A stretch of 49,665 nt of DNA from Ignavibacteriota bacterium (GTDB lineage Bacteria > Bacteroidota > Ignavibacteria > UBA10030): positions 1-49,665 of the forward strand of contig JAKEEG010000043.1 of NCBI GenBank assembly GCA_022616555.1. Direction: 5' to 3'. A model generated the notes under the pieces. The model saw only the letters and a program-made list of their open reading frames with translations, was not told the DNA's origin and ran no database searches. Positions 8,130 to 48,727 of this stretch are shown here, piece by piece; the stretch's first letter is position 1, and every line of letters begins with the position of its first letter. Made by a program: the position numbers and the translations under genes.

Positions 8130-10103
8130 ATGGTCGCTACACCCTCAAATTTAACTCTCTGGAACCCAGGGAATCCCTTACCCAGCGGAAATACCCAAAA
8201 GCAAGAGCCGCGCTTTTCCAACCACGCCTTTCAATCGTTGTGGGAAAACTCGATTGACGGCTTGGCTCTTACGGACAGTGACGGAATCTTCGTCAACGTT
8301 AACCAAGGCTACTGCCAGATTTTCGGTAAGAGCAAAGACGAGCTCATTGGCCAGCCGTTTTACGTGGTATGGGATGGTGGGGAGCGCGCCCAGCGTTTGC
8401 AAGACGCTTACAAAAAGCGGTTCGCAGCAAACAAGCTGGAAACGCACGTAGAGCGGCGTCTGAAACTTTGGTCGAGCGAACAGATCGATATAGAAGCATC
8501 CGGCTCGTTTGTCGAATCCGACGACGGTCAGAAGCTGCTTCTCACCGTGATTCGGAATATCACCCGGCGGAAACAAGCTGAAGCCTCACTTCGCAGAAGC
8601 GAAAAGCGATTCCACGATATTTTTGATAATGCCGTGCAGGGCATGTTTCAAAGTACCCCGGATGGGCATTTGATTGCGGCGAACCCCGCTCTTCTCAAGC
8701 TCTTAGGTTATTCTACGTTTGAGGAAATGGCCGCTGTCAACATGTCGTCCGTTTATGTGAATGCGGAAGACCGCATGATGCTGGGCGAGCTCTTGAAAGC
8801 GAAAGGGTATTGCTCAAATATCGAATTGCAGCTCAAGCGAAAAGATGGCAAGGTCATAACGGTATGCGAACACTCCCGCGCGATCAAAAATGAGTTTGGT
8901 GAAGTCGTCGAGTACGAAGGCATCATTGAAGACATGACCGTGCGGAAGGCGTTGGAGAAAAAACTTGACCAATACCTCACAGCGCTAAAAGCTTCTGAGG
9001 ATTCGCTCAAGACTCTCAATGCTCAGAAGGACAAGCTGTTTTCGATTCTCTCGCACGATCTGCGCTCGCCGTTCAGCAGCATCATCGGGTTTACGAAAAT
9101 CCTTCAAGAGGAACGAGAGACATTAAGTGAAGAAGAGCAAATAGAGTTTCTCGGCTTCATTCGTCAGGCTGCTGAACAGCAGCTCGGGCTTGTCAACAAA
9201 CTGCTGGATTGGTCTCGCTTCGAGACGGGCAGAGTCACGGTTGATATGAAGGAAATCAAGCTTGAAACCATCGTGCAAAAAAGCATAGATGGCGTGCAGG
9301 GCATCGCGAAACCAAAAAATATTCATCTCAGCTCCACCCTGCGTCCGAACCTTATCTCGCGCGGCGATGAGCAGATGCTGATGCAAGTGTTCAGCAACCT
9401 CGTCAGTAACGCATTGAAGTTTACTCCCCACGGCGGCAGCATCACGGTGAACCTCGCGGAAGAGACGAATGACGCGTGGGTCGTCGGTGTCAATGATACC
9501 GGCGCGGGAATACCGAAACAGGATTTGAAGAAGCTGTTTAAAGTTGAAGAAAAGTACACGCGTGAGGGATTGGACGGCGAAAAGGGTACTGGTCTTGGCT
9601 TACCCGTCGTCTATGAAATCGTGCAAAAGCATTCGGGCAGTATCACTGTAGAAAGCGAGGAAGGGAAGGGCACAACGTTCTTCGTCAGGCTGCCGAAGTA
9701 TTCTGCCGTTGAAGGCGTCAAAGTGATGGTTGTGGATGACGAGAATGGCGTCCGCACACTCCACTCTCGATACGTGAAACGCGCGGTTCCCGACGCGACG
9801 GTCATTTACGCCGCTAATGGTGAGGAAGCGTTGGAGCTTGCCCGGAAGTACCATCCTACCGTTGTCGTGAGCGATTACGCGATGCCGAAAATGGACGGTT
9901 TTGAATTCTTGACAGCACTGAAAAAAGATGAGAACTTGAAGGCCATTCCGGTTCTCATCATCACGGGCGAGGACTCAGCCGCGAGCAAGGATGCGCTCCG
10001 CATCGCTGGCGCCCAAGCAGTCTTGAGCAAGCCGATTGCGCCTGAAAAGTTGGAAGAAGTGCTGCTTCAAGCACTCTGTCAAACCAAACAAAAAGCCCAA
10101 TAG
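8130..10103 (+). CDS. Hybrid histidine kinase, PAS-PAS-HisKA-HATPase-REC
   Basis: A 657-residue cytoplasmic sensor kinase with no signal peptide or membrane segment. PAS 1 covers about residues 35-150 (SIDGLALTDSDGIFVNVNQ) and PAS 2 about 165-280 (NAVQGMFQSTPDGHLIAANP). The HisKA domain has the H-box SILSHDLRSPFSS with H309. The HATPase domain has NLVSNALKFTPHGG, DTGAGIPK and GTGLGLPVV. A C-terminal receiver has VVDDENG, VVSDYAMPKMDG with phospho-acceptor D582, and LSKPIAP. A GAAGGAG lies 8 bp before ATG. A terminator hairpin follows. A paralogue of the same layout is at 12988-14978, on the other side of a receiver/zinc-ribbon/PilB set, suggesting a shared pathway. Confidence 0.93.
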   Translation: MVATPSNLTLWNPGNPLPSGNTQKQEPRFSNHAFQSLWENSIDGLALTDSDGIFVNVNQGYCQIFGKSKDELIGQPFYVVWDGGERAQRLQDAYKKRFAANKLETHVERRLKLWSSEQIDIEASGSFVESDDGQKLLLTVIRNITRRKQAEASLRRSEKRFHDIFDNAVQGMFQSTPDGHLIAANPALLKLLGYSTFEEMAAVNMSSVYVNAEDRMMLGELLKAKGYCSNIELQLKRKDGKVITVCEHSRAIKNEFGEVVEYEGIIEDMTVRKALEKKLDQYLTALKASEDSLKTLNAQKDKLFSILSHDLRSPFSSIIGFTKILQEERETLSEEEQIEFLGFIRQAAEQQLGLVNKLLDWSRFETGRVTVDMKEIKLETIVQKSIDGVQGIAKPKNIHLSSTLRPNLISRGDEQMLMQVFSNLVSNALKFTPHGGSITVNLAEETNDAWVVGVNDTGAGIPKQDLKKLFKVEEKYTREGLDGEKGTGLGLPVVYEIVQKHSGSITVESEEGKGTTFFVRLPKYSAVEGVKVMVVDDENGVRTLHSRYVKRAVPDATVIYAANGEEALELARKYHPTVVVSDYAMPKMDGFEFLTALKKDENLKAIPVLIITGEDSAASKDALRIAGAQAVLSKPIAPEKLEEVLLQALCQTKQKAQ

Positions 10104-10251: not shown

Positions 10252-10647
10252 ATGAACAAGCCCTACTCCATACTGGTTGTCGACGATTCCCCGCACATGC
10301 GCATTCTCATATCTAGGCTGCTAAAGAACCGGGGATTTGAAAAAGTGGAATCCGCTGAAAACGGTTTGCGCGGTTTGGAAAAATTCAAGACGCTCGACCC
10401 TGAGGTCGTTTTCCTGGACGGCATCATGCCGGAGATGGATGGCTTGACGGTGCTTCGCGAAATCAAAAAAATCGACCCGGAAACGATCGTGGTGATTACC
10501 ACGTCGCTTTCCGACCGGGAGAAAGTGTTGGAATTTAAAACGGCAGGAGCAAACCACTATTTGCTCAAACCGTTTGAAGACAATAAATTCGACGAAACGC
10601 TTCAAAAGGTAGTAGCTACACTCGAACAACGCACAGCGAAAGGTTGA
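10252..10647 (+). CDS. Stand-alone CheY-like response regulator receiver
   Basis: A 131-residue single receiver domain with no output domain. It has SILVVDDSPHMR with the acidic pair, VVFLDGIMPEMDG with the phospho-acceptor Asp, VVITTSLSD with the switch Thr/Ser, and YLLKPFED with the conserved Lys. It is a candidate target for phosphotransfer from the neighbouring hybrid kinases. It is followed closely by a zinc-ribbon gene and a PilB-type ATPase, so it may regulate pilus extension. The downstream segment 10857-10967 encodes peptides resembling the CheY-binding end of FliM, which fits a receiver-adaptor interaction. Confidence 0.92.
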   Translation: MNKPYSILVVDDSPHMRILISRLLKNRGFEKVESAENGLRGLEKFKTLDPEVVFLDGIMPEMDGLTVLREIKKIDPETIVVITTSLSDREKVLEFKTAGANHYLLKPFEDNKFDETLQKVVATLEQRTAKG

Positions 10648-10649
10648 CG

Positions 10650-10856
10650 ATGGATTGCACACGGTGTTCGACACCCAACGATGATATCCGGAAGTACTGC
10701 CGCTCCTGCGGCACTCCGCTCGGCAGGCTCTGCGACCGTTGCGGAACTGTGAACATGAATGACGACAAATTCTGCGGCGTCTGCGGGTTTGCCCTCATCG
10801 CCTCGCTGAAACCGAACGAGAAAAGTAACTCGCTTGTCGCGGGAATTCCCCGCTAG
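10650..10856 (+). CDS. Double zinc-ribbon protein, probably shortened by an in-frame TAG
   Basis: A 68-residue product with two zinc ribbons: C3/C6 with C17/C20, and C28/C31 with C42/C45. The reading frame stops at TAG (10854-10856), but the same frame continues without another stop for 36 codons to TAA at 10965-10967, just before the PilB-type gene. That extension contains two FliM-like peptides. A CAG-to-TAG change would explain the layout. The TTG at 10644 is in frame, but the ATG at 10650 is preferred. The gene starts 2 bp after the receiver stop, so it is in the same operon. Function unknown; an adaptor role is an inference. Confidence 0.75.
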   Translation: MDCTRCSTPNDDIRKYCRSCGTPLGRLCDRCGTVNMNDDKFCGVCGFALIASLKPNEKSNSLVAGIPR

Positions 10857-10967
10857 TATTCCGCAAGTGAAATCGATGAACTGCTCTTGTTGCGAAGTGA
10901 ATTAAAACCAGGGGAAAAGACCTCCACGGTGCTCTCGCAAAATGAAATCGACAACCTTTTTGGATAA
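10857..10967 (+). pseudogene. In-frame continuation of the zinc-ribbon gene with two FliM-like peptides
   Basis: Read in the frame of the zinc-ribbon gene after its TAG, this segment encodes YSASEIDELLLLRSELKP and ends TVLSQNEIDNLFG then TAA. LSQNEIDNLF closely matches the N-terminal CheY-binding peptide of flagellar FliM (LSQAEIDALL), and SASEIDELL is a second, looser copy. There is no ATG within the segment to start it separately. It is most simply the original C-terminus of the zinc-ribbon protein, cut off by a nonsense change or a base-calling error. Readthrough is possible but unproven. Confidence 0.6.
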
Positions 10968-10973
10968 TCCGCG

Positions 10974-12674
10974 ATGACCGTCGAAGACCAGCATTTTCTG
11001 AACCGGCTTGTTGCTTTGGGGATTTTACCGGGCGACCTCGTAAAGGCGAAGAACTCGCAATTAGAGCATTCCGTTCGCGAGAAGGGGATGACACGCGCGC
11101 TGATCGAGCAATTCGGCTTGTCGGAAAATGCCGTTGCCGACGCCATTTGTAAGGAGTCCGGTTTCGGGAAAATGTTGATCGTCAACGAAATCGAAACCGC
11201 TCCCACCCAGTTATTGACCGAGGACGAGATTCACACCTACCGTACGGTGCCGATCTTTTGCATCGGGCTCGAGCTTACGATGGCGTTCACCGACCCGCCA
11301 AGCAGGCAGCTTCGTACCCATTTGCAGAAGATGACCGGTTTCCAGATTCTCCCAGTCATCACCACTGTATCTGATTTCGATGCTGCGGTGAAAAAATACC
11401 GCGGTACAGTGGACCGAGTCCAGCGTATAGGCTCAACCGTTGACCTTGAGAAATACGACATCCGAAAGTCGGTAACCCCGGGGCGAGCGGCGATATCCGA
11501 AAAAGAAGCCGACGCGACTATCGCCCAGCTTGTGGACGAACTGCTTCTGCGGGCGGCAAAAATGGGAGCGAGCGACATCCATATCGAGCCGGCAGAAGAT
11601 GAGTTGATGATCCGCTTCCGCATCGACGGTATGCTTCAGCGCATACTTTCTCTTCCCACTGCATACCATAAAGGGATGATCTCGGTCATTAAAGCGAAAT
11701 CAGGTATGGACATGTTCGAGCGTTCCATCCCACAGGACGGAAGAATGACCCTGAATGCCGCCGACCGTGTGTTCGACGTACGTGTCAACAGCTTGCCGAT
11801 GCTGCTCGGCGAGAAAATCGTCCTTCGCCTCTTGGGCAAGACGGCGATGATGACGAACCTGGAGAACCTTGGATTTTCCCAGAAGAACCTGGACATGTTC
11901 AGAACACTGATGCGCCTGCCAAACGGCATTATTTTAGTTACTGGACCCACCGGCAGCGGCAAAACAACCACGTTGTATTCTGCGCTCAATGAGATGAAAG
12001 ACATTGGCAGGAACATTACAACTGTAGAAAATCCTGTGGAGTACAAACTGCCCCTCATCAATCAGGTGCAGGTCAACGCCGATCGGGGCTTGACGTTTGC
12101 CTCCGTGCTGCGGGCGATTTTACGGCAGGACCCGAACGTCATTCTAGTCGGCGAAATCCGTGACGCCGAAACCGGTATCATTGCCACGGAAGCCGCCTTA
12201 ACAGGCCATTTGGTGCTCAGCACGCTTCACACAAACGATGCCATCGGTGCTATTTCGCGTTTGGTGAACCTCGGTGTCGCATCGTTTTGGGTAAGCGCAT
12301 CGGTTATCGGTGTGCTCGCCCAGCGCCTTGTGCGAAAAATCTGCGAGCGCTGTAAGGAAGAATATACGCCGGAGGCATCGGTTCTTGAATCCTTCGGGTT
12401 ATCGAACCTGCCGAAGGATGTTACGCTCTTTCGCGGAAGAGGATGCTCATTTTGCAACGGCGTTGGATATAAGGGCAGGATGGCAATCCATGAAATTCTT
12501 ATTCTCACCGAAGAAATGCGCGATGTGATCTACGGAGAAGTCACGACGACGAAACTGCGCAACCTCGCCATGGCGAACAATTTCCAGGATATGTATTTCG
12601 ATGGGTTGCGCAAGGCCCTCGCCGGCATCACCACGCTTGAAGAAGTCCAACGAGTCGCCCGCCGAGCGATTTAA
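10974..12674 (+). CDS. Type IV pilus / type II secretion assembly ATPase (PilB/GspE)
   Basis: A hexameric cytoplasmic ATPase of 566 residues that powers pilus or pseudopilus assembly. It has an N-terminal T2SSE-N (MshEN-like) domain over about residues 1-150, then the ATPase core: ASDIHIEP, Walker A GPTGSGKT near residue 324, the Asp box VENPVEYKL, Walker B VGEIRDAET, and the His box STLHTNDA. A zinc site follows, CERC and CSFCNGVGYKGR. It starts 6 bp after the TAA of the zinc-ribbon continuation. A second, separate PilB is at 42600-44390 within the pilus cluster; this copy instead lies among signalling genes. Confidence 0.94.
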   Translation: MTVEDQHFLNRLVALGILPGDLVKAKNSQLEHSVREKGMTRALIEQFGLSENAVADAICKESGFGKMLIVNEIETAPTQLLTEDEIHTYRTVPIFCIGLELTMAFTDPPSRQLRTHLQKMTGFQILPVITTVSDFDAAVKKYRGTVDRVQRIGSTVDLEKYDIRKSVTPGRAAISEKEADATIAQLVDELLLRAAKMGASDIHIEPAEDELMIRFRIDGMLQRILSLPTAYHKGMISVIKAKSGMDMFERSIPQDGRMTLNAADRVFDVRVNSLPMLLGEKIVLRLLGKTAMMTNLENLGFSQKNLDMFRTLMRLPNGIILVTGPTGSGKTTTLYSALNEMKDIGRNITTVENPVEYKLPLINQVQVNADRGLTFASVLRAILRQDPNVILVGEIRDAETGIIATEAALTGHLVLSTLHTNDAIGAISRLVNLGVASFWVSASVIGVLAQRLVRKICERCKEEYTPEASVLESFGLSNLPKDVTLFRGRGCSFCNGVGYKGRMAIHEILILTEEMRDVIYGEVTTTKLRNLAMANNFQDMYFDGLRKALAGITTLEEVQRVARRAI

Positions 12675-12987: not shown

Positions 12988-14978
12988 ATGCAAGCCCTTC
13001 GTATTGTAGAACCGCCCGGATTATACGACGCCTATCCGATTCGCCAATCGGCAGTTCGAACGCGCAACCGCGGAGCGATGCTATTCCGTAGTACCACCAG
13101 CGTTCTCCAGTCTGTCTGGGAACACACCGTCGATGGGATGGTGGTAACGGATGGTGAAGGGATGGTCATAGCCGTCAATAAGGCGTTCTGTGCGCTTGTC
13201 GGTATGCAGGAGCACGAGTTGGTGGGGAGGTCCTATACCGCGTTCAGCGCCATGCGTCATGGCCGTGAGGAAGGTTTGCGAGCGTACCAGCGCAATTTCA
13301 AAATCGCGCGATTGCGAAATACTTCGAGAAGCGCTTCATCACGAATGACGGCAGGGAAATCGATGTGGAAATTGCCAATTCGTTTGTGGAAGGCGAGGAC
13401 GGCGTTGTGTTGCTGCTCGGTGTGTACCGCGATGCGACGCGCAGGAAGGAAGCCGAACGTAAACTAGCGCGCAGTGAAAAAAATTTCCGCGAACTGTTCG
13501 ATAAGTCCGTGCAGGGGATGTTTCAAGTCTCAGCGAACGGCAAACTCATTAACGCGAACCCGGCTCTGCTGCGGCTGCTCGGCTACTCTTCGCTTGACGA
13601 GCTTCGCCAGGTTGATATTGCACATGACATTTATATTAATCCGCGGGACCGGGAGCGGCTGATGGATTTGTTGCTCACGCACGGGTTCTGCCGCGACGTT
13701 GAACTCCAGCTTAAACGAAAAGACGGCACACGGATCACTGTATTGGAGCATTCTCGCGTCATCAAAGACGACAACGATAATCCGGTACTCTTTGAAGGAA
13801 TTTTGGAAGACATTACGGACCGGAAGGAGCAGGACAGGAAACTTCGAGAATCCGTCGATGCGCTGAGGGTTTCTGAAGAGTCGCTTGCAGAGTCGAATGC
13901 CCGGAAAGACAAACTGCTCGCGGCTCTCTCGCACGATATACGTTCTCCGCTCGGCAGCATCCTTGGGTTCTGTGACTTGCTTATTCAAGAGGGCGAAAAA
14001 CTGTGCAAAGACGAGCAACAGCAATTCCTCGGGTTTATCCGGGATGCAGCTCAGAGCCAGTTGAAATTGATCAACGAGTTGCTGGAAAAACCGATGCAAA
14101 AGTCCGCAGCGCAAGAAAGCAATGACTCGGTCACAGACCTTGCTGAAATGGGTAGCAGGACGTTTGAGTTGTTGAAATCCGTGGCAAAACAGAAACACGT
14201 TGAGCTGCTGATGAATATTCCAACGCACACAGTCATCTCTGCAAACCGCCAGCTTGTTCTGCAGGTGATGAATAATCTTGTGAGCAACGCGTTGAAGTTC
14301 ACACCCGGTGGCGGCAGTGTGGCATTGTCCCTTGCCGGCGAGACAGAAAAAGACGTTACGGTCGCGGTGAGTGATACGGGTATCGGGATGAGTTCCGAAG
14401 ATACCGCAAGACTGTTCGCAGGCAAGGAAATTCAATCTCGAACAGGACTCTCAGGAGAAAAGGGAAGCGGCGTTGGCTTGCGGTTATGTGCCGATATCAT
14501 GAATGAAGTCGGCGGAGAAATAAGTGTTACCAGCGAAGTTGGGAGAGGGACAACATTCTTCCTCCAATTTTCAAAGCTGCCCGAAAGCGGTCAGGCAAAT
14601 GTGATCGTTGCCGACGACGATGCCGGTGTCCGCGCACTCCACACGAAATATATAGCACGAGCTTTCCCCGGCGCGCGGATTTTGCAAGCGGAAGACGGGC
14701 AGAAAGCGTTGGAGCTGATGTTCCGGCACAAACCGAAGATTGTGTTCTCGGACTATGCTATGCCGAAGATGAACGGCCTAGCACTCATCGAAGCGGCACG
14801 GCGGCATGAGGAAATCCAGAACATTCCAATTGTCATAGCGACGGGACATGATTCATGGGCGACATTGGATGCTCTGGAATCTGCCGGGGCACACGAGGTG
14901 GTCGCCAAGCCTGTCTCGCCGATGAAGTTCGAAACGATCCTTCGCTCGATGCTCTCTCAAGAGAAAGAGAAGAATTGA
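12988..14978 (+). pseudogene. Hybrid histidine kinase 2 (PAS-PAS-HisKA-HATPase-REC), frameshifted in PAS 1
   Basis: A paralogue of the 8130 kinase, split into two overlapping frames. The first frame (from ATG 12988) encodes PAS 1 up to RAYQRNFK. The second continues with NRAIAKYFEKRFITNDGREI and runs to 14978. The switch falls at the AAAA run 13300-13303, where one extra A would restore a protein of about 663 residues that aligns along its length with kinase 1 (657). Downstream domains look intact: PAS 2, H-box ALSHDIRSPLGS, NNLVSNALKFTPGGG, and a receiver with FSDYAMPKMNG and VVAKPVSP. A 1-bp homopolymer error in the assembly is as likely as a real lesion. Confidence 0.88.
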
Positions 14979-41194: not shown

Positions 41195-42571
41195 ATGCCT
41201 GAGTATCGTATAGAGGGCGTGACGGTCGCTGGTAAGCAGGTCGCCGGCGCGATCACGGCGGACAACAAAAAATCCGCTAAACAAAAAGCGGAAGAGATGG
41301 CTCGTGAGAAAAAGTTCAAAATAACGGCCATCCATGAGCGTACGACCTTCCTGTATCGGGTGCAAAAAGGCACTGACAAGCCGATTGACGGTGAGCAGAA
41401 AGCCTTTTCGAAGGATGAGGTCAAGGTTGCGCTGGAAAAAATGGGCTTCCGCGTTGTTTACGTGCGGAGAAAGCTCTTCGCCGGCGGTCAGAAGGCAGCG
41501 CCAGCTGTCGATGTCATTACCTTTGTGCGCGTAAGCGCCGACCTGATGCGCCAAAAGCTTCCGTACAACGAAGTGCTCAACCTACTGGTGAACGACATCG
41601 ACAACCCGGCGTTGCGTGAGTCGGTCAAAGAGATTAACGCGGAGTTAAAACAAGGCAAAGACAGCGAGAAGGTATTCCAAAAACAGGCCCCGGTGTTCGG
41701 AAAATTTACCGCGCACATGCTTGGGTTGGCGTCGAAGAGCGGCAACATGGCGGAGATTTACGATAGCACCGCGAAGTTCCTTGAACGCAACGCGCAGTTC
41801 AAACGAAATCTCAAGAGCGCCCTCATCATGCCGTTAGTGACGGTGTTCATCCTGATGCTCGCCGTGCTCTTCTACGTCATGTACATTTTCCCGGCAACGG
41901 CGGAAATGTTTGAGAAGTTCAAAATTGACCTTCCGCCGATGACCAAAGCGACGCTGGCGTTCAGCCGCTGGGCGACGTCGAACTTCCTTTGGATTATGCT
42001 TGTCATGATTGTGCCGGCGGTCCTTGTCGGGCGCTTTGCTTCCACTGAGAAGGGACGCCTCTTCCTCGATAAAAATTTGTGGAAAGTCCCCGTTATTGGC
42101 TCGCTGATGCATAAGACGGCAATTGAAATTTTCTGCCGGGTATTCTACGCGCTGTACAGCGGCTCGGGTGAAAATATCGATGTCATCAAAATGTCCGCCG
42201 AAGCATGCGGCAACAAACACATGGAGAAGCAGATTAAGAGCGTCTCTATCCCTCTCATGTTGGAAAAAGGAAAGGGCCTTACTGAGGCGTTTGAAGCGGC
42301 CAACGTATTTACGAAAACGGCGATCTCGCGCTTCAGCTCGGGAGCAGAAACAGGAACGGTGCGCAACACGGCGCTGCAGCTTGCCGAGTACTACGAGAAG
42401 GAAACAACGTACCGCCTTGCGAACGCCATCGAAGCCATTCAGCTTGCTGTGGCAATGTATATTATGATCGTGCTGATGGCGCTGACTGTCGTTTCGTCTG
42501 AAACCGCCGTCGTCAAACCGAAAGCGCCGGGTACATTTATCCATTATATCGGTTCGTGGTTGTCATTTTAA
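41195..42571 (+). CDS. pilC: Type IV pilus inner-membrane platform protein PilC (GspF family)
   Basis: A 458-residue polytopic protein that couples the assembly ATPase to pilin subunits. Two GspF domains are visible: residues about 105-230 (VITFVRVSADLMRQKLPYNEVL, FGKFTAHMLGLASKSGNMAEI) and 305-430 (IEIFCRVFYALYSGSGENIDV, AISRFSSGAETGTVRNTALQLAEYY). Each is followed by a hydrophobic segment. The first 90 residues form a divergent N-terminal region with two basic subdomains, longer than in classic PilC. GGACGGAGAG lies before the ATG. pilB follows after 28 bp. Confidence 0.92.
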   Translation: MPEYRIEGVTVAGKQVAGAITADNKKSAKQKAEEMAREKKFKITAIHERTTFLYRVQKGTDKPIDGEQKAFSKDEVKVALEKMGFRVVYVRRKLFAGGQKAAPAVDVITFVRVSADLMRQKLPYNEVLNLLVNDIDNPALRESVKEINAELKQGKDSEKVFQKQAPVFGKFTAHMLGLASKSGNMAEIYDSTAKFLERNAQFKRNLKSALIMPLVTVFILMLAVLFYVMYIFPATAEMFEKFKIDLPPMTKATLAFSRWATSNFLWIMLVMIVPAVLVGRFASTEKGRLFLDKNLWKVPVIGSLMHKTAIEIFCRVFYALYSGSGENIDVIKMSAEACGNKHMEKQIKSVSIPLMLEKGKGLTEAFEAANVFTKTAISRFSSGAETGTVRNTALQLAEYYEKETTYRLANAIEAIQLAVAMYIMIVLMALTVVSSETAVVKPKAPGTFIHYIGSWLSF

Positions 42572-42599
42572 CGATTTGTACTGATTAAGGGGATCAGCC

Positions 42600-44390
42600 A
42601 TGCCGGAAATAGATATAACTGATAAAATTGGTTATACACTTCTGAAAAAAGGCATCATCGACTTCGAGACGCTTGAGAAGTCTTTGAAGATGAAGGACTC
42701 CGAGGAGAATAAAAAGAACCGCAAGAACCTCGGCCAAATCCTTGTATCGGAGTTCGGCGCCGATCACGATGCGGTGTTTCGCGAAGTTGCGAATCTCTAT
42801 GCGTTCCGCGAGATTTATCTGCAGGACGAAAATCTGGAAGATGCCCGCATCAACTTCATCAAGAAACTTATCGAGGCGCTTCCCGAGGCGCAGCGCGAGA
42901 TGATGATCCAGGCGAAGATGTTGCCCTTGAAGTACGACGAGCGCCAAACAGATAAACTGGTAGTCATTGCCGCAGACCCCACAGACCGAAACTTGCCGGT
43001 CGTTGCCCGAAGTTTCAATGTAAAAAAGTATGAGATCTGCTACGTCAGGCTCAAAGACCTTGTGAGCTTGATGGAGAAGGTCGCGCCCAAGCAGAATGAG
43101 TTCCTCAAGATGCTGGAGGATAATGCGATTTCTGTTGAAGGCGGCAGCATGCAGGAAGAGGAAGTAGACGAAGACGCGCTTGAAGCGGAAATTAATAAGA
43201 GCGCCTTGGTGAACCTATTTGAAGGATGCTTAGTTGAAGCGGTTCGCAGGGACATCAGCGATATTCATATTGTCGCGGCTGAAGGGAATAAGACAAACTT
43301 CATGTTCCGCCTGGACGGTAACCTGCAAGTATGGCACTGCCAGGAAAATACGCTTCCGGAAGCCGTGCTCGCAGTTGTGAAAGACCGTACGAAAAACGTC
43401 GACCGATTCGAGCGGGAAATGTCGCAAGACGGTTTTATCCAGCGAGTGATTGACGGACACCAGTTGCGCTTCCGCGTGTCGATTATGCCTATCGTGACAA
43501 CGGAATTTAAGAACAAGTTTGAAAGCATCGTTATCCGCGTGTTGGACGACCGCAAAGTGATTACCGACCTTGAAAAGCTTGGTTTGCAAGGTCCCGCCCG
43601 CGGCTTTTTCTACAAGGCGATTGGCAAGCCCCAGGGCATCGTCATTCTGACAGGTCCTACGGGTTCCGGTAAATCTACAACGCTTATTGCTGCATTGTAT
43701 CAAGTTATCGACCCAACGGTCAACGTACTCACGATCGAAGAGCCAGTCGAGTACATCATCAGGGGCGCAAGGCAGTTAAAGATCGGTCCGAAGATGTCGT
43801 TCGAGCAGTCCATTCGCGGTATTCTCCGTCACGACCCGGACATTGTGCTTGTCGGTGAGATGCGCGATAAGGTAACGGCGGAAACGGCCATCAAACTTGC
43901 GAACACGGGTCACTTGGTATTTTCCACGCTGCACACGAACGATGCGCCGAGCGCCGTTGCCCGTTTGTACAAGATGGGCATCGAGCCGTTCCTGATCGCG
44001 TACGCCATCAATATTATCGTCGCCCAGCGACTTATCCGGACGCTGTGCAAGGTATGCAAGCAACCGCTTGATGATTCCGAAAAGGGAGACCTGCTCAAGT
44101 TTGGCTTCTCCGAAGAAGAGGTGAAGGCCCATACGTTCTACAAACCGGTCGGCTGTGACAAGTGTAACGGCGGGTGGAAGGGCAGAGCTGCTATCCACGA
44201 GGCGTTATTCTTCACCAAGGCGATTAAGGACATCGTGCTGAACGCAGGTGAAAAAGTGGACGAGAACGCAATTCGCGACCAGGCTTCGAAGGACGGCATG
44301 TGGACCCTGCGTCGTTCGGGTATGGAGCGAATGAAAGAGGGCTCGACCGCGCTTGAGGAAGTCATTGCCTCTACGGTGGAAGACGAGTAA
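42600..44390 (+). CDS. pilB: Type IV pilus extension ATPase PilB (GspE family)
   Basis: A 596-residue motor ATPase for pilus polymerisation. It has an N-terminal T2SSE-N domain (about 1-160), an acidic linker, RRDISDIHIVAAEG, Walker A GPTGSGKS near residue 350, the Asp box IEEPVEYII, Walker B VGEMRDKVT, and the His box STLHTNDAPS. The zinc site is CKVCKQ and CDKCNGGWKGRAAIHE. It lies with pilC on one transcript and is followed by a strong terminator. It is the second PilB-type ATPase in the window, so the two may serve different machines or states. Confidence 0.94.
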   Translation: MPEIDITDKIGYTLLKKGIIDFETLEKSLKMKDSEENKKNRKNLGQILVSEFGADHDAVFREVANLYAFREIYLQDENLEDARINFIKKLIEALPEAQREMMIQAKMLPLKYDERQTDKLVVIAADPTDRNLPVVARSFNVKKYEICYVRLKDLVSLMEKVAPKQNEFLKMLEDNAISVEGGSMQEEEVDEDALEAEINKSALVNLFEGCLVEAVRRDISDIHIVAAEGNKTNFMFRLDGNLQVWHCQENTLPEAVLAVVKDRTKNVDRFEREMSQDGFIQRVIDGHQLRFRVSIMPIVTTEFKNKFESIVIRVLDDRKVITDLEKLGLQGPARGFFYKAIGKPQGIVILTGPTGSGKSTTLIAALYQVIDPTVNVLTIEEPVEYIIRGARQLKIGPKMSFEQSIRGILRHDPDIVLVGEMRDKVTAETAIKLANTGHLVFSTLHTNDAPSAVARLYKMGIEPFLIAYAINIIVAQRLIRTLCKVCKQPLDDSEKGDLLKFGFSEEEVKAHTFYKPVGCDKCNGGWKGRAAIHEALFFTKAIKDIVLNAGEKVDENAIRDQASKDGMWTLRRSGMERMKEGSTALEEVIASTVEDE

Positions 44391-44420
44391 AAATAAATCT
44401 AATACGATACATCTTGCACA

Positions 44421-44456
44421 ACGGGCTATCTTGAAAGAGATAGCCCGTTTTTGTTT
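44421..44456 (+). terminator. Rho-independent terminator after pilB
   Basis: A perfect 11 bp stem ACGGGCTATCT/AGATAGCCCGT with a 6-nt loop, followed by TTTTGTTTT. Confidence 0.93.
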
Positions 44457-44522
44457 TATGTGTCAACTCATAAATCGCTCTTAGCTCATATTACGGCGAC
44501 TATCGCGCACGACCTTATGCGA

Positions 44523-44573
44523 GATACCACCTCGCGCGTGTGGGAAAAATCCAAGGCCGTTTGGGGACTTTCC
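44523..44573. repeat. Dispersed repeat (GATACCACC...TCCAAG), uninterrupted copy
   Basis: Matches 32913-32984 apart from point changes and the missing 20 bp palindrome. It shows the undisturbed form of the repeat. Confidence 0.75.
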
Positions 44574-44646
44574 AAGTGTATCGTAGAGAGCGGTTGAGGT
44601 GGGGAAAAAGCACGAGAGACTCATATCGATACAAAACCGGGTAATT

Positions 44647-44660
44647 TGTAGAAAGTATAG
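44647..44660. promoter_or_regulatory. TGTAGAAAGTATAG motif upstream of the minor-pilin genes
   Basis: Matches 12 of 15 positions of TGTAGAAATTACAGG, the motif before the two hybrid kinases and moeA. It lies about 175 bp before the first minor-pilin-like gene. The match is weaker than the others. Confidence 0.25.
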
Positions 44661-44835
44661 TATCGCACAAGCCCCCGCATATACAGTCGCCCCCACCTCG
44701 TTAGAATCTTCGTTTTCCGCATGAAAACCCGTCATTCCTGTTAGTCTCAACGGCTAATGGATTTTTGGGAATGCATTCCCCGTGGCACGAAAGTAGCACT
44801 TTAGTGGGTCAAGACTAAGACTTACTGGAGAATTC

Positions 44836-45378
44836 GTGACCCAAGTGTTGCTCATAATCTGTGCGATATCGCTGCTTTCGGTGCTGACGCTCAGCGTCAA
44901 CGGCACCTTTTTAGCAGCTGTTAGCACCAGTATCGAAGCCCAAGCGCAGTTGACGGCTTTTTCGCTGTCCCAAAATCTCATGGATGAAATTCTCTCCAAG
45001 GCATTTGATGAAGCGACTGTAGGGGGAAAAGAGGCGTTCGACACCACAGTATTTACTCAATCCAAGTATTTCGGTTCCGAGGCTGGCGAAAGCCTCGGGG
45101 GTATCGATTCGACAGGGCGTTCCTTCAGCCAATTTGATGATGTCGATGACTACCACAATTATACTCGAGTCGTGAGAGACAGTGTGCTGGATTACTTTAC
45201 CATAACGTGTCGTGTTACCTATGTCTCCCGGGAAGCACTCGATAGAGAGGCCTCTGGGCGGACATTTCTCAAAGCAATTACCGTCACGGCCGCACATCCA
45301 AATTTTCCGCAGGACAATTCGGGCAATATCGTGCCCGTTGTCTTTCAAGAAATAGCGGTTTCCCGCAAGTATCTGTAA
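44836..45378 (+). CDS. Minor pilin-like protein A
   Basis: A 180-residue protein with an N-terminal hydrophobic segment (VLLIICAISLLSVLTLSV) followed by an amphipathic helix-like stretch with TSIEAQAQLTAFSLSQNLMDE, the outline of a pseudopilin. There is no recognisable G/A-xxxxE prepilin cleavage site. The rest is polar and Asp-rich. GTG start with CTGGAG upstream. Its position, first in a set of three similar genes followed by pilT, supports a role in pilus priming or export. Homology to PilV/GspI is inferred only from layout. Confidence 0.55.
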   Translation: MTQVLLIICAISLLSVLTLSVNGTFLAAVSTSIEAQAQLTAFSLSQNLMDEILSKAFDEATVGGKEAFDTTVFTQSKYFGSEAGESLGGIDSTGRSFSQFDDVDDYHNYTRVVRDSVLDYFTITCRVTYVSREALDREASGRTFLKAITVTAAHPNFPQDNSGNIVPVVFQEIAVSRKYL

Positions 45379-45392
45379 TTTTTGGAGTAACT

Positions 45393-46007
45393 ATGGGCTC
45401 AAGCAGTAGAATGGATATTGTTGCATCGGCTATTCTGTTCGGTGTTATCCTGACGACAGTCGGAAGGGTGCAGGCCAATATGAATTCAACGATGTATTAC
45501 AATACCAATAATTACGTTACGCAGAATTTCGTGCTCGCGCTCTCGAAACAAATTGAATTCGATTTCACCAAGATGGGCTACGGAATCGATTCAGCGAAAA
45601 TCGGGCTTGCAGAGCGCAATGCGATCCGGTTTAGTTATCGCCTGCGCGGCGAGCAAACCCGTCGGACCATCGGCTACTCCGTAGATGTTGCGAAGCGGGC
45701 TTCAGAGACGATAAACCCGCGGGACCTCACGATGGTGCGAACCGAAAACGGCAGCGTTGTGGAACAGAATATCGGCATCACCGAGTTTACGTTGACGTAT
45801 TATAACGCGGCGATGGAAGAAATATCGACGCCGGTGAATGGCGCTCGCTTGGATTCAATTCGTGCCGTCCGTGTGTCATTTCGAATCGAAAGCTTTGAGC
45901 CGATCATTCTGCCGGAAGGCGAGCAGTACGTGTCCATGCCGTGGCAGAAACTGTTGTATCCGAAAAATCTTGTAACTTTCATTAAAGGATGTCGTCATGG
46001 GTCGTAA
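45393..46007 (+). CDS. Minor pilin-like protein B (GspJ/PilW-like)
   Basis: A 204-residue protein with N-terminal MGSSSRMDIVASAILFGVIL, a hydrophobic segment preceded by a short leader, then YVTQNFVLALSKQIEFDFTKMGYG, resembling the helix of PilW/GspJ-type minor pilins in which an N-terminal helix is followed by LARQIE...D-x2-K-x-GY. The C-terminal half is beta-rich with LDSIRAVRVSFRIES. TTGGAG precedes the ATG. It overlaps the next gene by 11 bp, so the two are translated together. Confidence 0.6.
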   Translation: MGSSSRMDIVASAILFGVILTTVGRVQANMNSTMYYNTNNYVTQNFVLALSKQIEFDFTKMGYGIDSAKIGLAERNAIRFSYRLRGEQTRRTIGYSVDVAKRASETINPRDLTMVRTENGSVVEQNIGITEFTLTYYNAAMEEISTPVNGARLDSIRAVRVSFRIESFEPIILPEGEQYVSMPWQKLLYPKNLVTFIKGCRHGS

Positions 46008-47049
46008 CGCATTATTACTTGTCATGGGCGTAGGATTTGCTTTCGGAACAATTCGGTACAGCATCAATACAGTGACTGCCGAAGGTTTGCAAAGCAATTG
46101 GTCTTATTATAAAGCAATGAACGCGCATAAGCTTGCTAAAACGGCGATCCATACCGCTTTGCACACGTACGATATGGGTGATACCCCTGTGGTACATCAA
46201 GATATTCAGTATGCAGGCGGGACATTCAGGATCACCGAATTGAAGACGGATACAGCCCCGTACGATACCGTGTGGATTGCCGCAGAGGGCACATATGAAG
46301 ATACTACTGCGCAACTATTTTGTACACTGCGCCGCGAAACGCAATTCTTCCCCAACGTCCCCGGGGCGCTTGGTGTTCGTGGGCAACCGGCTTTGTTCTC
46401 GCTCAAAGGCAATCCCGAAATTGACGGAAGAAATTACACGGCGGACGGATCTTCCCTGGTGAACTCGGGTGATGTGCCGGGTGTCTCCGTTATGACAACG
46501 GCTGATTCTTGGAACTTGTACGTTGCCGCGGGATTGAACCTCACTCAAAAGATCAAAGGTGCGCCGGCAATCGAGGTCGACCCGACAATTCCTGAACCTG
46601 CGGACTATTTTGACGATTACCTCGCAAAAGCAGATTATGTACTGACTCAAACACTGGTGAACGGCAATAAGACGTACGGGTCATCTGCTGCACCGGTGAT
46701 TGTCGTGTGTGACGATCCTTCGTATTGGAATTACAGCGTCAAGTTTTCCGGCAATGTCAAAGGGTATGGCATTCTTGTTGTGCGAGGGAATGTCGAATTT
46801 TCCGGTACATCCCAATGGAACGGGTTAGTCCTCGTGACTGGAAAAACCTCCTCGGTCAGTTTTAAAATGTCGGGTACCGCGAGTATTGTCGGAGGCGTCA
46901 TCCTTGGTCGTGGAACGAACGGCTCAGCGAGCGTCTCGTACTCTGGAAACGGCAACAAGAGTAAACTCAAGTACAGCAGCGAGGCTCTGGCGAACGCGCG
47001 CTCAATCGGAAAGCTTCAGTCCTATTCCATCGTAGATTGGTACGAGTAA
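45997..47049 (+). CDS. Minor pilin-like protein C (PilX-like N-terminus, repetitive beta-rich C-terminus)
   Basis: A 350-residue protein. The N-terminal part (GRNALLLVMGVGFAFGTIRY) is a short hydrophobic segment followed by a long helix (SNWSYYKAMNAHKLAKTAIHTAL), as in PilX/GspK-type proteins. The C-terminal part has repeated Gly/Ser/Val segments: NVKGYGILVVRGNVEFSG, WNGLVLVTGK, FKMSGTASIVGGVILG, suggesting a beta-helix. AAAGGA lies before the ATG, which is inside the end of the preceding gene. It may be a pilus tip adhesin or tip-complex organiser; this is inference. Confidence 0.6.
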   Translation: MGRNALLLVMGVGFAFGTIRYSINTVTAEGLQSNWSYYKAMNAHKLAKTAIHTALHTYDMGDTPVVHQDIQYAGGTFRITELKTDTAPYDTVWIAAEGTYEDTTAQLFCTLRRETQFFPNVPGALGVRGQPALFSLKGNPEIDGRNYTADGSSLVNSGDVPGVSVMTTADSWNLYVAAGLNLTQKIKGAPAIEVDPTIPEPADYFDDYLAKADYVLTQTLVNGNKTYGSSAAPVIVVCDDPSYWNYSVKFSGNVKGYGILVVRGNVEFSGTSQWNGLVLVTGKTSSVSFKMSGTASIVGGVILGRGTNGSASVSYSGNGNKSKLKYSSEALANARSIGKLQSYSIVDWYE

Positions 47050-47074
47050 GTCTGAGAAATCTTTCGGCACAAGA

Positions 47075-47127
47075 ACGTGCGATGCGCTTCCTGGTCATGC
47101 TTTGGAAAGTGCGTCGCACGTTTATTT
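47075..47127 (+). terminator. Long terminator hairpin after the minor-pilin operon
   Basis: A 15 bp stem with two G-U pairs (ACGTGCGATGCGCTT against AAGTGCGTCGCACGT), a 17-nt loop and a TTATTT tail. It lies 25 bp after the stop of minor pilin C. Confidence 0.75.
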
Positions 47128-47330
47128 CCAGCCAAGGTACTTTCTTCGCAGGTCTCCCCACCATCTGACGACGCTTTCCTATGCCTGTACCGCACGTCAC
47201 AATTTCTTGATGGCAGTTTCTCCGCGCGTTGGAAACACTTTTTTGCTGTAAAATGAAGGCTGCGGGGCTAGTGGAAAACCGCGAAAAGGCGCGAAAATCC
47301 TTTCCGTGCAACGTGTTGTGTGAAAAGGGG

Positions 47331-47359
47331 TTGCATTTGGACTTGGAGTTTAGTATTAT
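47331..47359 (+). promoter_or_regulatory. Sigma-70 type promoter of pilT
   Basis: TTGCAT at 47331-47336 and TATTAT at 47354-47359 with a 17 bp spacer, about 70 bp before the ATG. The -10 and spacing are the same as in the pilC promoter. Confidence 0.65.
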
Positions 47360-47428
47360 CTCTTCGTTATTTCGCGTGGTGGAGTGTTGATGCCGGGTAG
47401 GGTGATCTCGATACGAACTTAGGGAGCG

Positions 47429-48727
47429 ATGACACAACCGACTCAAGCTGCTCCTCCGAAACCAGCCGGTCCGAGTGTGACAGTTCAAACGGAACTGCCG
47501 CCGATTGTTTTGGAGGGACATAAAATTTTAAAAGATACCGCGGCGACTCTTCCCAAGTCCGTCACCGGTCTCGAGCGTCAGATGATGATCGGCGACATCA
47601 TCACGCGCATGGATGAATCCGTGAAGCAGAAGCTCCACGCGATGATGAATACCTTCCTGACGCGCATGTTTCAAGTGAATGCGTCGGATATCGACATGGG
47701 CGGGTACGGAGGACAGGGCTCGGTGTGGTACCGGATCTTTGGGTCGAAGAAGCCGGATAAATCGCTCGGCAATTACTCGCCGGACGAAATGAATATTTTG
47801 ATCCAGAGTATTATCGGTGAACGGCAGAGAGGATTCTTGTACGAGAATCGCAACCTCGATTTCTCGCACATGCTCTGGGTGAACGAAAATGAATTCCGGC
47901 GCTTCCGCGCGGACGCGTACTTCGACCTTGAAATGCTCGCGTTGAATATGCGCGCGATCAACAACACCGTGCGCCCGTACAAGATGCTCGACTTTCACCC
48001 GAACGTGACAAAAGTGCTCAGCCTCGCAACGACGAAAGAAGGCCTGTGCTTAGTTACGGGCATCACCGGATCGGGTAAAAGTTCCACGCTTGATGCGATT
48101 ATTGACGCGAATAACCAAACGGTTGACGCACACATTGTTATTATCGCATCTCCGATTGAGTACGTGCACAAGTCCAACAAATGTATTATCCGCCATCGCG
48201 AGGTAGGAAAGGATGTCCTTTCGTTCAAGGATGGTGCAGTTCAAGCGTTGCGCCAGGACCCGGATATTATCATGATCGGTGAGTTGCGCGACCCCGAAAC
48301 GATTCTCACTGCGCTTGAAATCACCGATTCGGGCCACAAAGTCTTTTCTACGCTTCACACGGCGTCGGCAGTTGAAAGTATCGACCGTATCATCGGTGAG
48401 ACTCCGCCGGTGGAGCAGGAGCGTGTTCGCAACCGCCTCGCCGATACCTTGCGGGCTGTGTGTTCGCAGAAACTTATCCCCAGTCTCGACGGCAAACGTG
48501 CTTTGGCAAAAGAAATCATGCTGGGTACACCCTCGGTTAGGGCAGCGATCAAGAACAACAACACGGGCGAGATTTACCAGATGATTTCAGAGGGTCTTGA
48601 AAGCGGAATGACAACGATGGAGCAAGATCTCAAACGTCTTTATCTCCAAAAGAAAATTTCGCTTGAAGCCGCGATGCAATACTGCAATAACAAGCGTCGT
48701 ATGGAGCAGTTGTTGCAAATGCATTAG
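47429..48727 (+). CDS. pilT: Type IV pilus retraction ATPase PilT
   Basis: A 432-residue ATPase that depolymerises pili. It has an N-terminal Pro-rich tail, VNASDIDMGGYGGQGSVWYRI, Walker A variant GITGSGKSS near residue 210, the Asp box IIASPIEYVHKS, RHREVGKDVLSF, ALRQDPDIIMIGELRDPET (Walker B), the His box STLHTASAVESIDRII, and AVCSQKLIPS, all in the PilT order. It lacks the PilB zinc motif. AGGGAG precedes the ATG. It is longer at the N-terminus than typical PilT (about 345-370). A terminator follows. Confidence 0.92.
   Translation: MTQPTQAAPPKPAGPSVTVQTELPPIVLEGHKILKDTAATLPKSVTGLERQMMIGDIITRMDESVKQKLHAMMNTFLTRMFQVNASDIDMGGYGGQGSVWYRIFGSKKPDKSLGNYSPDEMNILIQSIIGERQRGFLYENRNLDFSHMLWVNENEFRRFRADAYFDLEMLALNMRAINNTVRPYKMLDFHPNVTKVLSLATTKEGLCLVTGITGSGKSSTLDAIIDANNQTVDAHIVIIASPIEYVHKSNKCIIRHREVGKDVLSFKDGAVQALRQDPDIIMIGELRDPETILTALEITDSGHKVFSTLHTASAVESIDRIIGETPPVEQERVRNRLADTLRAVCSQKLIPSLDGKRALAKEIMLGTPSVRAAIKNNNTGEIYQMISEGLESGMTTMEQDLKRLYLQKKISLEAAMQYCNNKRRMEQLLQMH

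Follow-up and report, generated by a model that had tools for sequence, protein, structure and literature searches.

The C-terminal tail of CheZ binds CheY on the same face as the FliM peptide. According to the sections of one paper that we draw on (PMC9126983), a conserved EIDALL motif for phosphorylated CheY (CheY-P) is found in both FliM and FliY. There, archaeal CheF is described as the adaptor that links CheY-P to the motor of the archaellum; CheY binds the C-terminal domain of CheF. CheF has two PH-like domains and forms a dimer, and it contacts CheY near the phosphorylation site via alpha1 and loops, unlike FliM (PMC9126983).

Receivers that act on pilus motors have also been reported. 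In excerpts of the respective papers, the single-domain receiver EmvR of Xanthomonas binds to PilB, whose ATPase it represses (PMC11973254), and the receiver PilG of Pseudomonas, whose own localization depends on FimV and FimL, controls where PilB is localized (PMC12632253). EmvR and PilG acting on PilB, and CheF acting on the archaellum, are among the few cases in which a route from a receiver to a pilus-type motor has been worked out. In the available portion of a review of PilB cofactors, the terms "FliM" and "adaptor" are absent, and "zinc" appears twice, for the ATPase's own zinc site (PMC11656802). In a literature search, with most subscription journals outside its coverage, we recognized no account of the cassette described here.

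This cassette has three genes, for a CheY-like receiver, a zinc-ribbon protein (the adaptor), and a PilB-like ATPase. The adaptors form a family with a conserved gene order, a near-invariant tail, and a distinct clade of neighboring ATPases, and the cassette occurs in genomes without a match to FliM. We describe it from one member, in a stretch of 49,665 nucleotides (the window), whose relevant features are as follows.

8130-10103, + strand: hybrid histidine kinase (PAS-PAS-HisKA-HATPase-receiver, from Pfam), candidate phosphate donor
10252-10647, + strand: single-domain CheY-like receiver (Response_reg, 97.1 bits; phosphorylation residues present)
10650-10853, + strand: 5' part of the adaptor, with a double zinc ribbon (residues 1-47) and a linker (DZR, PF12773, 40.1 bits versus a cutoff of 27.3; conserved Cys)
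10854-10856, + strand: in-frame TAG at codon 69 (the 44 other near-full-length members all lack an internal stop)
10869-10886, + strand: EIDELL, which in models of a relative aligns where a longer helix begins (23 of 36 members fit a loose pattern)
10932-10964, + strand: LSQNEIDNLFG, the FliM/CheZ-like tail that closes the frame (pattern in 36 of 36 other members examined)
10974-12674, + strand: PilB-like ATPase (MshEN and T2SSE) of the cassette clade (Pfam, NCBIfam, and tree)
12988-14978, + strand: second gene for a hybrid kinase, with a frameshift in the region from about 13293 to 13317

The adaptor family and the stop codon in the window

The adaptor frame begins with an ATG at 10650, encodes 68 residues before the TAG, and ends with a TAA at 10965-10967. 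The part after the TAG has 36 codons (Y70-G105; YSASEIDELLLLRSELKPGEKTSTVLSQNEIDNLFG). Just 2 bases separate the end of the receiver gene from the adaptor's ATG, and 6 bases separate the adaptor's TAA from the PilB-type gene. The original prediction, which was made from the sequence of the window, had placed the TAG at 10854, followed by 36 codons that encode SASEIDELL and LSQNEIDNLF, and had placed the gene directly between a receiver and a PilB-type ATPase; when we reread the frame and compared the coordinates, both descriptions were accurate.

An initial search of 61 genomes (the window's and 60 relatives) found matches to the adaptor in 23 of them, and many of these matches were full length and free of stops. 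We aligned the window's adaptor with 25 relatives (26 rows); Cys is invariant at 7 positions. When the profile of this alignment was run on 98 genomes from the window's order, it matched 35 genomes at E ≤ 1e-9. Near-full-length members, defined as matches that start at profile position 1 or 2 and reach 106 or 107, numbered 45, in 30 of the 98 genomes. Only the window's member has an internal stop: the other 44, in 29 other genomes, continue uninterrupted through the stop position, and none of them ends there. Thus, the ribbons and the tail belong to one protein, as the original prediction had supposed, and this protein is interrupted in the window. Two further matches lack the start and retain the tail (profile positions 25-107 and 19-106), and in four genomes of the order, the ribbon half alone was matched.

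In a phylum-level sample of 395 genomes, strong full-length matches numbered seven, from five genomes, and every one of them lies inside the order. Outside the order, the top score was 50.1 bits, and four weak matches that cover most of the profile sit in longer or broken frames. The tail was absent from 475 frames at outside-order loci (L051-L075, which do not include the weak matches in G127 and G309). No adaptor match was found at L077, L078, or L079; the upstream side of L077 is missing because its ATPase begins at the end of the contig.

To judge from how well the rest of the frame is conserved, the TAG in the window's adaptor probably reflects either a recent lesion or an error in the sequence. 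For all 25 aligned relatives, the stretch beyond the stop has a higher identity to the window than the linker does. For closer relatives, identity after the stop is similar to that of the ribbons (0.53 versus 0.62 for L028 and 0.60 versus 0.47 for L027); for distant relatives, it is often lower than that of the ribbons. A frame that is still conserved beyond its stop suggests that the lesion is recent or that the sequence is in error. Furthermore, the frameshift in the kinase gene (13293-13317) is a second lesion less than 2.5 kb from the TAG, which favors poor sequence or decay of the locus. It seems improbable that, in the window alone, a real TAG either leaves a functional short ribbon protein of 68 residues or is bypassed by readthrough. 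The conservation of the frame beyond the stop would fit such a scenario, but none of the other near-full-length members (45 in all) stops at this position, the next gene but one is also broken, as expected from decay or sequence error, and TAG is the normal stop of a neighboring gene. Recoding of TAG was dismissed on similar grounds: the neighboring kinase gene ends normally on TAG. The main matched part of the frameshifted kinase (12988-14978) is 45% identical to the kinase at 8130-10103.

Gene order, the receiver, and the ATPase

We compared the surroundings of 25 other members of the family. In all 24 members with room for it, the immediately preceding gene on the same strand encodes a single-domain receiver (L040 was left out because it is too near the end of its contig). 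A PilB-like ATPase lies downstream in 25 of 25, counting L027, whose frame ends at 339 amino acids near the end of the contig, L028 and L038, whose frames run off the contig, and L034, where the ATPase occupies two separate frames. For L028, the automated ORF list has an opposite-strand frame between the adaptor and the ATPase. The gap between the receiver and the adaptor ranges from -4 to +28 bases (25 values, including the window and leaving out L040), and the gap between the adaptor and the ATPase ranges from -4 to +45 bases (25 values, including the window and leaving out L028). The order receiver-adaptor-PilB, which had been noted in the window, is therefore maintained in the 25 other members, with the upstream side of one of them (L040) lying off the contig.

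Some genomes have more elaborate arrangements. Tandem pairs of complete receiver-adaptor-ATPase cassettes are present at L041, L044, L046, and L024 (in genomes G035, G045, G056, and G059); the tandem cassettes carry differing types of adaptor and could form a paired set. At several loci, kinase or receiver genes are near the cassette. At L039 (5161-6264) and L042 (7110-8225), a gene with receiver and HATPase_c domains is directly upstream of the cassette's receiver and might encode a dedicated kinase.

The receivers retain the phosphorylation residues. Numbering the residues by alignment with E. coli CheY (36% identical), we found the two Asp of the acidic pocket, the phospho-acceptor Asp, Ser or Thr in the place of Thr87, and the equivalents of Lys109 and Tyr106 in 24 of 24 cassette receivers, including the window's. 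With these residues and no output domain, the window's protein is a CheY-like single-domain receiver. It is not a CheY equivalog as defined by NCBIfam, since it scores 72.4 bits versus a cutoff of 189 for PRK10610 and 88.8 bits versus a cutoff of 200 for CheY_Halo.

The window's ATPase matches T2SSE (417.8 bits) and MshEN (27.6 bits versus a cutoff of 23.1) from Pfam. Against NCBIfam's PilB model (TIGR02538), it scores 525.1 bits, which is below the equivalog cutoff of 675.65. In a tree of 29 ATPases, with cassette ATPases of at least 400 amino acids taken from chosen loci only, all 22 cassette ATPases form one clade (support of 100/99), and the other 7 are outside it; one of those 7 (L110) has a long branch and an unsure placement. 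Four T2SSE genes are present in the window's genome: the cassette's, one on another contig, and two at 41195-48727. Two cassette-free genomes have three and four T2SSE genes, so the cassette's ATPase is not clearly an addition; it belongs to a separate clade and need not be "extra." The region at 41195-48727, on the same contig as the cassette, is a pilus or type II secretion cluster, with a T2SSF gene, a PilB/GspE-like gene, three smaller genes, and a second T2SSE gene (432 amino acids).

The cassette is not tied to flagella. FliM (PF02154) has a match in 31 of the 98 genomes of the order, and there is no match in the window's genome, which is 98% complete. Among the 30 genomes with the cassette, 10 have a match to FliM and 20, including the window's, do not; completeness is at least 90% for 15 of these 20. 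Another 21 genomes have FliM without a full-length adaptor. The nonflagellar setting that had been proposed for the window's cassette is thus shared with 19 other genomes. We rejected a flagellar role as the main reading, given the 20 cassette genomes with no match to FliM and the 21 genomes with FliM only. At the level of domains, a Pfam search at E ≤ 0.1 gave no FliM domain (PF02154) for the read-through protein and no CheZ phosphatase domain for the adaptors, and CheF-type PH-like or dimeric C-terminal helical domain families are likewise absent from the adaptors' Pfam hits.

The tail and its predicted partner

In the 25 aligned relatives, the tail's Q and F are invariant (25/25 each), its D is present in 23 (with E in the other 2), and its L is present in 23. 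The pattern Q-x-[DES]-[IVL]-[DE]-x-[LIM]-F, which was composed after the alignment had been viewed, occurs within the last 16 residues of all 36 distinct members examined besides the window's; these 36, of 44 known, are those in loci with retrieved sequence. None of the 1,007 other six-frame ORFs (of at least 80 residues) at these loci has such a tail. The adaptor tail aligns position for position with the N-terminal start of FliM from E. coli (MGDSILSQAEIDALLNG), with the start of FliM in two genomes of the same order (MAELLSQAEIDSLLSG), and with the C-terminal end of CheZ from E. coli (ASQDQVDDLLDSLGF). By this comparison, the tail fits the pattern of the EIDALL type of CheY-binding peptide, though C-terminal instead of N-terminal.

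The original prediction proposed two FliM-like CheY-binding peptides, and the likeness to FliM is upheld for one of them. The C-terminal peptide is universal. The other, EIDELL, lines up where a helix of 21 residues begins in models of a relative, and its loose pattern fits 23 of the 36 members; it appears to be part of a longer helix. Because of this position and its lower conservation, we do not regard it as another CheY peptide.

We scanned 10 genomes with the tail pattern and found 37 sites, versus 3 for the reversed pattern. By our reading, eight of the 37 sites are cassette adaptors and 29 are not; the strict pattern does not detect the adaptors of G040 and G032. As to a second protein with the same tail, we inspected 13 of the 29 other sites, and none was C-terminal: they are inside proteins or in frames of noncoding appearance. 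Six of them lie within one recurring protein (L123-L128), which we take to be DNA polymerase III delta, and which has an internal motif of the QNEIDKLF type. The three other sites in the window's genome are 94 to 170 residues from the end of the protein.

For one relative (L033), the receiver and adaptor genes are in one frame, two codons apart, so a single chain can be translated from them, with the stop counted as a residue. We modeled this chain, joined by two residues, with AlphaFold (54 rows). The mean pLDDT was 87.2 and the pTM was 0.69; the linker (188-201) was below 50, and the helix of the tail (233-240) was in a block with a mean of 90. When the adaptor was modeled alone (34 rows), the two blocks with the tail had values of 71 and 81, and the pTM was 0.36. 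The longer helix, whose start aligns with EIDELL, did not gain confidence beside the receiver. The higher confidence of the tail beside the receiver is modest support for a predicted contact between the two. The closest solved structures are of CheY and other receivers; the receiver part of the model matches CheY structures, including CheY-FliM entries, with Z of about 21. The matches cover the receiver, except for three PleD rows that extend into the tail, and Foldseek listed receivers, with CheY fused to CheF at the top. In PleD, the second receiver packs against the alpha4-beta5-alpha5 face of the first. The pTM of 0.69 and the PleD rows that reach the tail are weak hints as to which face of the receiver the tail may contact.

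Proposed mechanism and comparison with known systems

We propose that the three genes form a signaling cassette in which the phosphorylated receiver docks on the adaptor's tail and thereby gates the PilB-like ATPase; we give this reading a probability of roughly 0.58. A histidine kinase, suggested by its position, would phosphorylate the stand-alone receiver. The receiver's alpha4-beta5-alpha5 face would then bind the LSQxEIDxLF tail of the adaptor, as the motif, its location, and the model suggest, in a manner that would resemble CheY-P on the N terminus of FliM and on the C terminus of CheZ. As the gene order suggests, the double zinc ribbon may contact the ATPase encoded next to it, so that phosphorylation would gate or recruit that enzyme at a machine for type IV pili or type II secretion. 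With the adaptor cut before its tail, the switch is probably broken in the genome of the window, unless the TAG is a sequence error. In its overall interpretation, the original prediction was partly supported: it was sound regarding the single protein, the gene order, the match of the tail, and the lack of a tie to flagella, and too strong regarding two peptides.

The tail's partner could instead be another receiver or the ATPase. We think it unlikely, though worth considering, that the tail binds the ATPase or some other protein and that the receiver acts on the adaptor or the ATPase in another way, much as EmvR, in the excerpts cited above, contacts PilB directly (PMC11973254). Gene order links the adaptor equally to both of its neighbors and so is compatible with this scheme, but the tail matches the CheY ligands FliM and CheZ across nine positions, and its confidence in the models is greater beside the receiver. 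It is quite doubtful that the adaptor is a phosphate sink or a CheZ-like module, whose tail captures the phosphorylated receiver to localize or dephosphorylate it, with no gating of the ATPase. CheZ does have a similar peptide at its C terminus; however, the adaptor's Pfam hits do not include the CheZ domain, and a PilB-like ATPase is the next gene in 25 of 25 other members.

More broadly, we see about even odds that FliM-type docking of CheY has moved to a zinc-ribbon adaptor that switches a dedicated PilB-like motor, with most of the hosts showing no FliM; this would be a third link from CheY to a motor, beside FliM and archaeal CheF. If so, the flagellar docking peptide for CheY would be transferable from one motor to another, unrelated one, and the adaptor family, which Pfam and NCBIfam recognize by its zinc ribbons alone, would gain a testable function. 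A compact three-gene cassette with a recognizable tail of the CheY-binding type also makes for a clear prediction in a lineage that had no such regulator in the literature we searched.

The cassette shares some features with each of the systems that have been described. Like EmvR and PilG, its receiver is a single-domain protein that would act on a PilB-type ATPase, but no zinc-ribbon adaptor or FliM-like tail is described in the sections of the EmvR and PilG papers that we draw on. The PilB-FimX-PilZ system is similar in that accessory proteins gate PilB, but there the mediators are c-di-GMP proteins. The adaptor resembles archaeal CheF in its proposed role of linking CheY-P to a motor, and it differs from the CheF of the sections cited above, with its PH-like domains, dimer, and mode of binding. 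Its C-terminal peptide is like that of CheZ (SQxxVDxLL), and it has zinc ribbons instead of a CheZ domain. Finally, it shares with the N-terminal peptide of FliM the nine positions S-Q-x-E-I-D-x-L-[L/F], the proposed CheY-like partner, and a motor as the target; unlike in FliM, the peptide is C-terminal and on a zinc-ribbon protein, which adjoins a PilB-like ATPase and which 20 of 30 genomes encode without a match to FliM.
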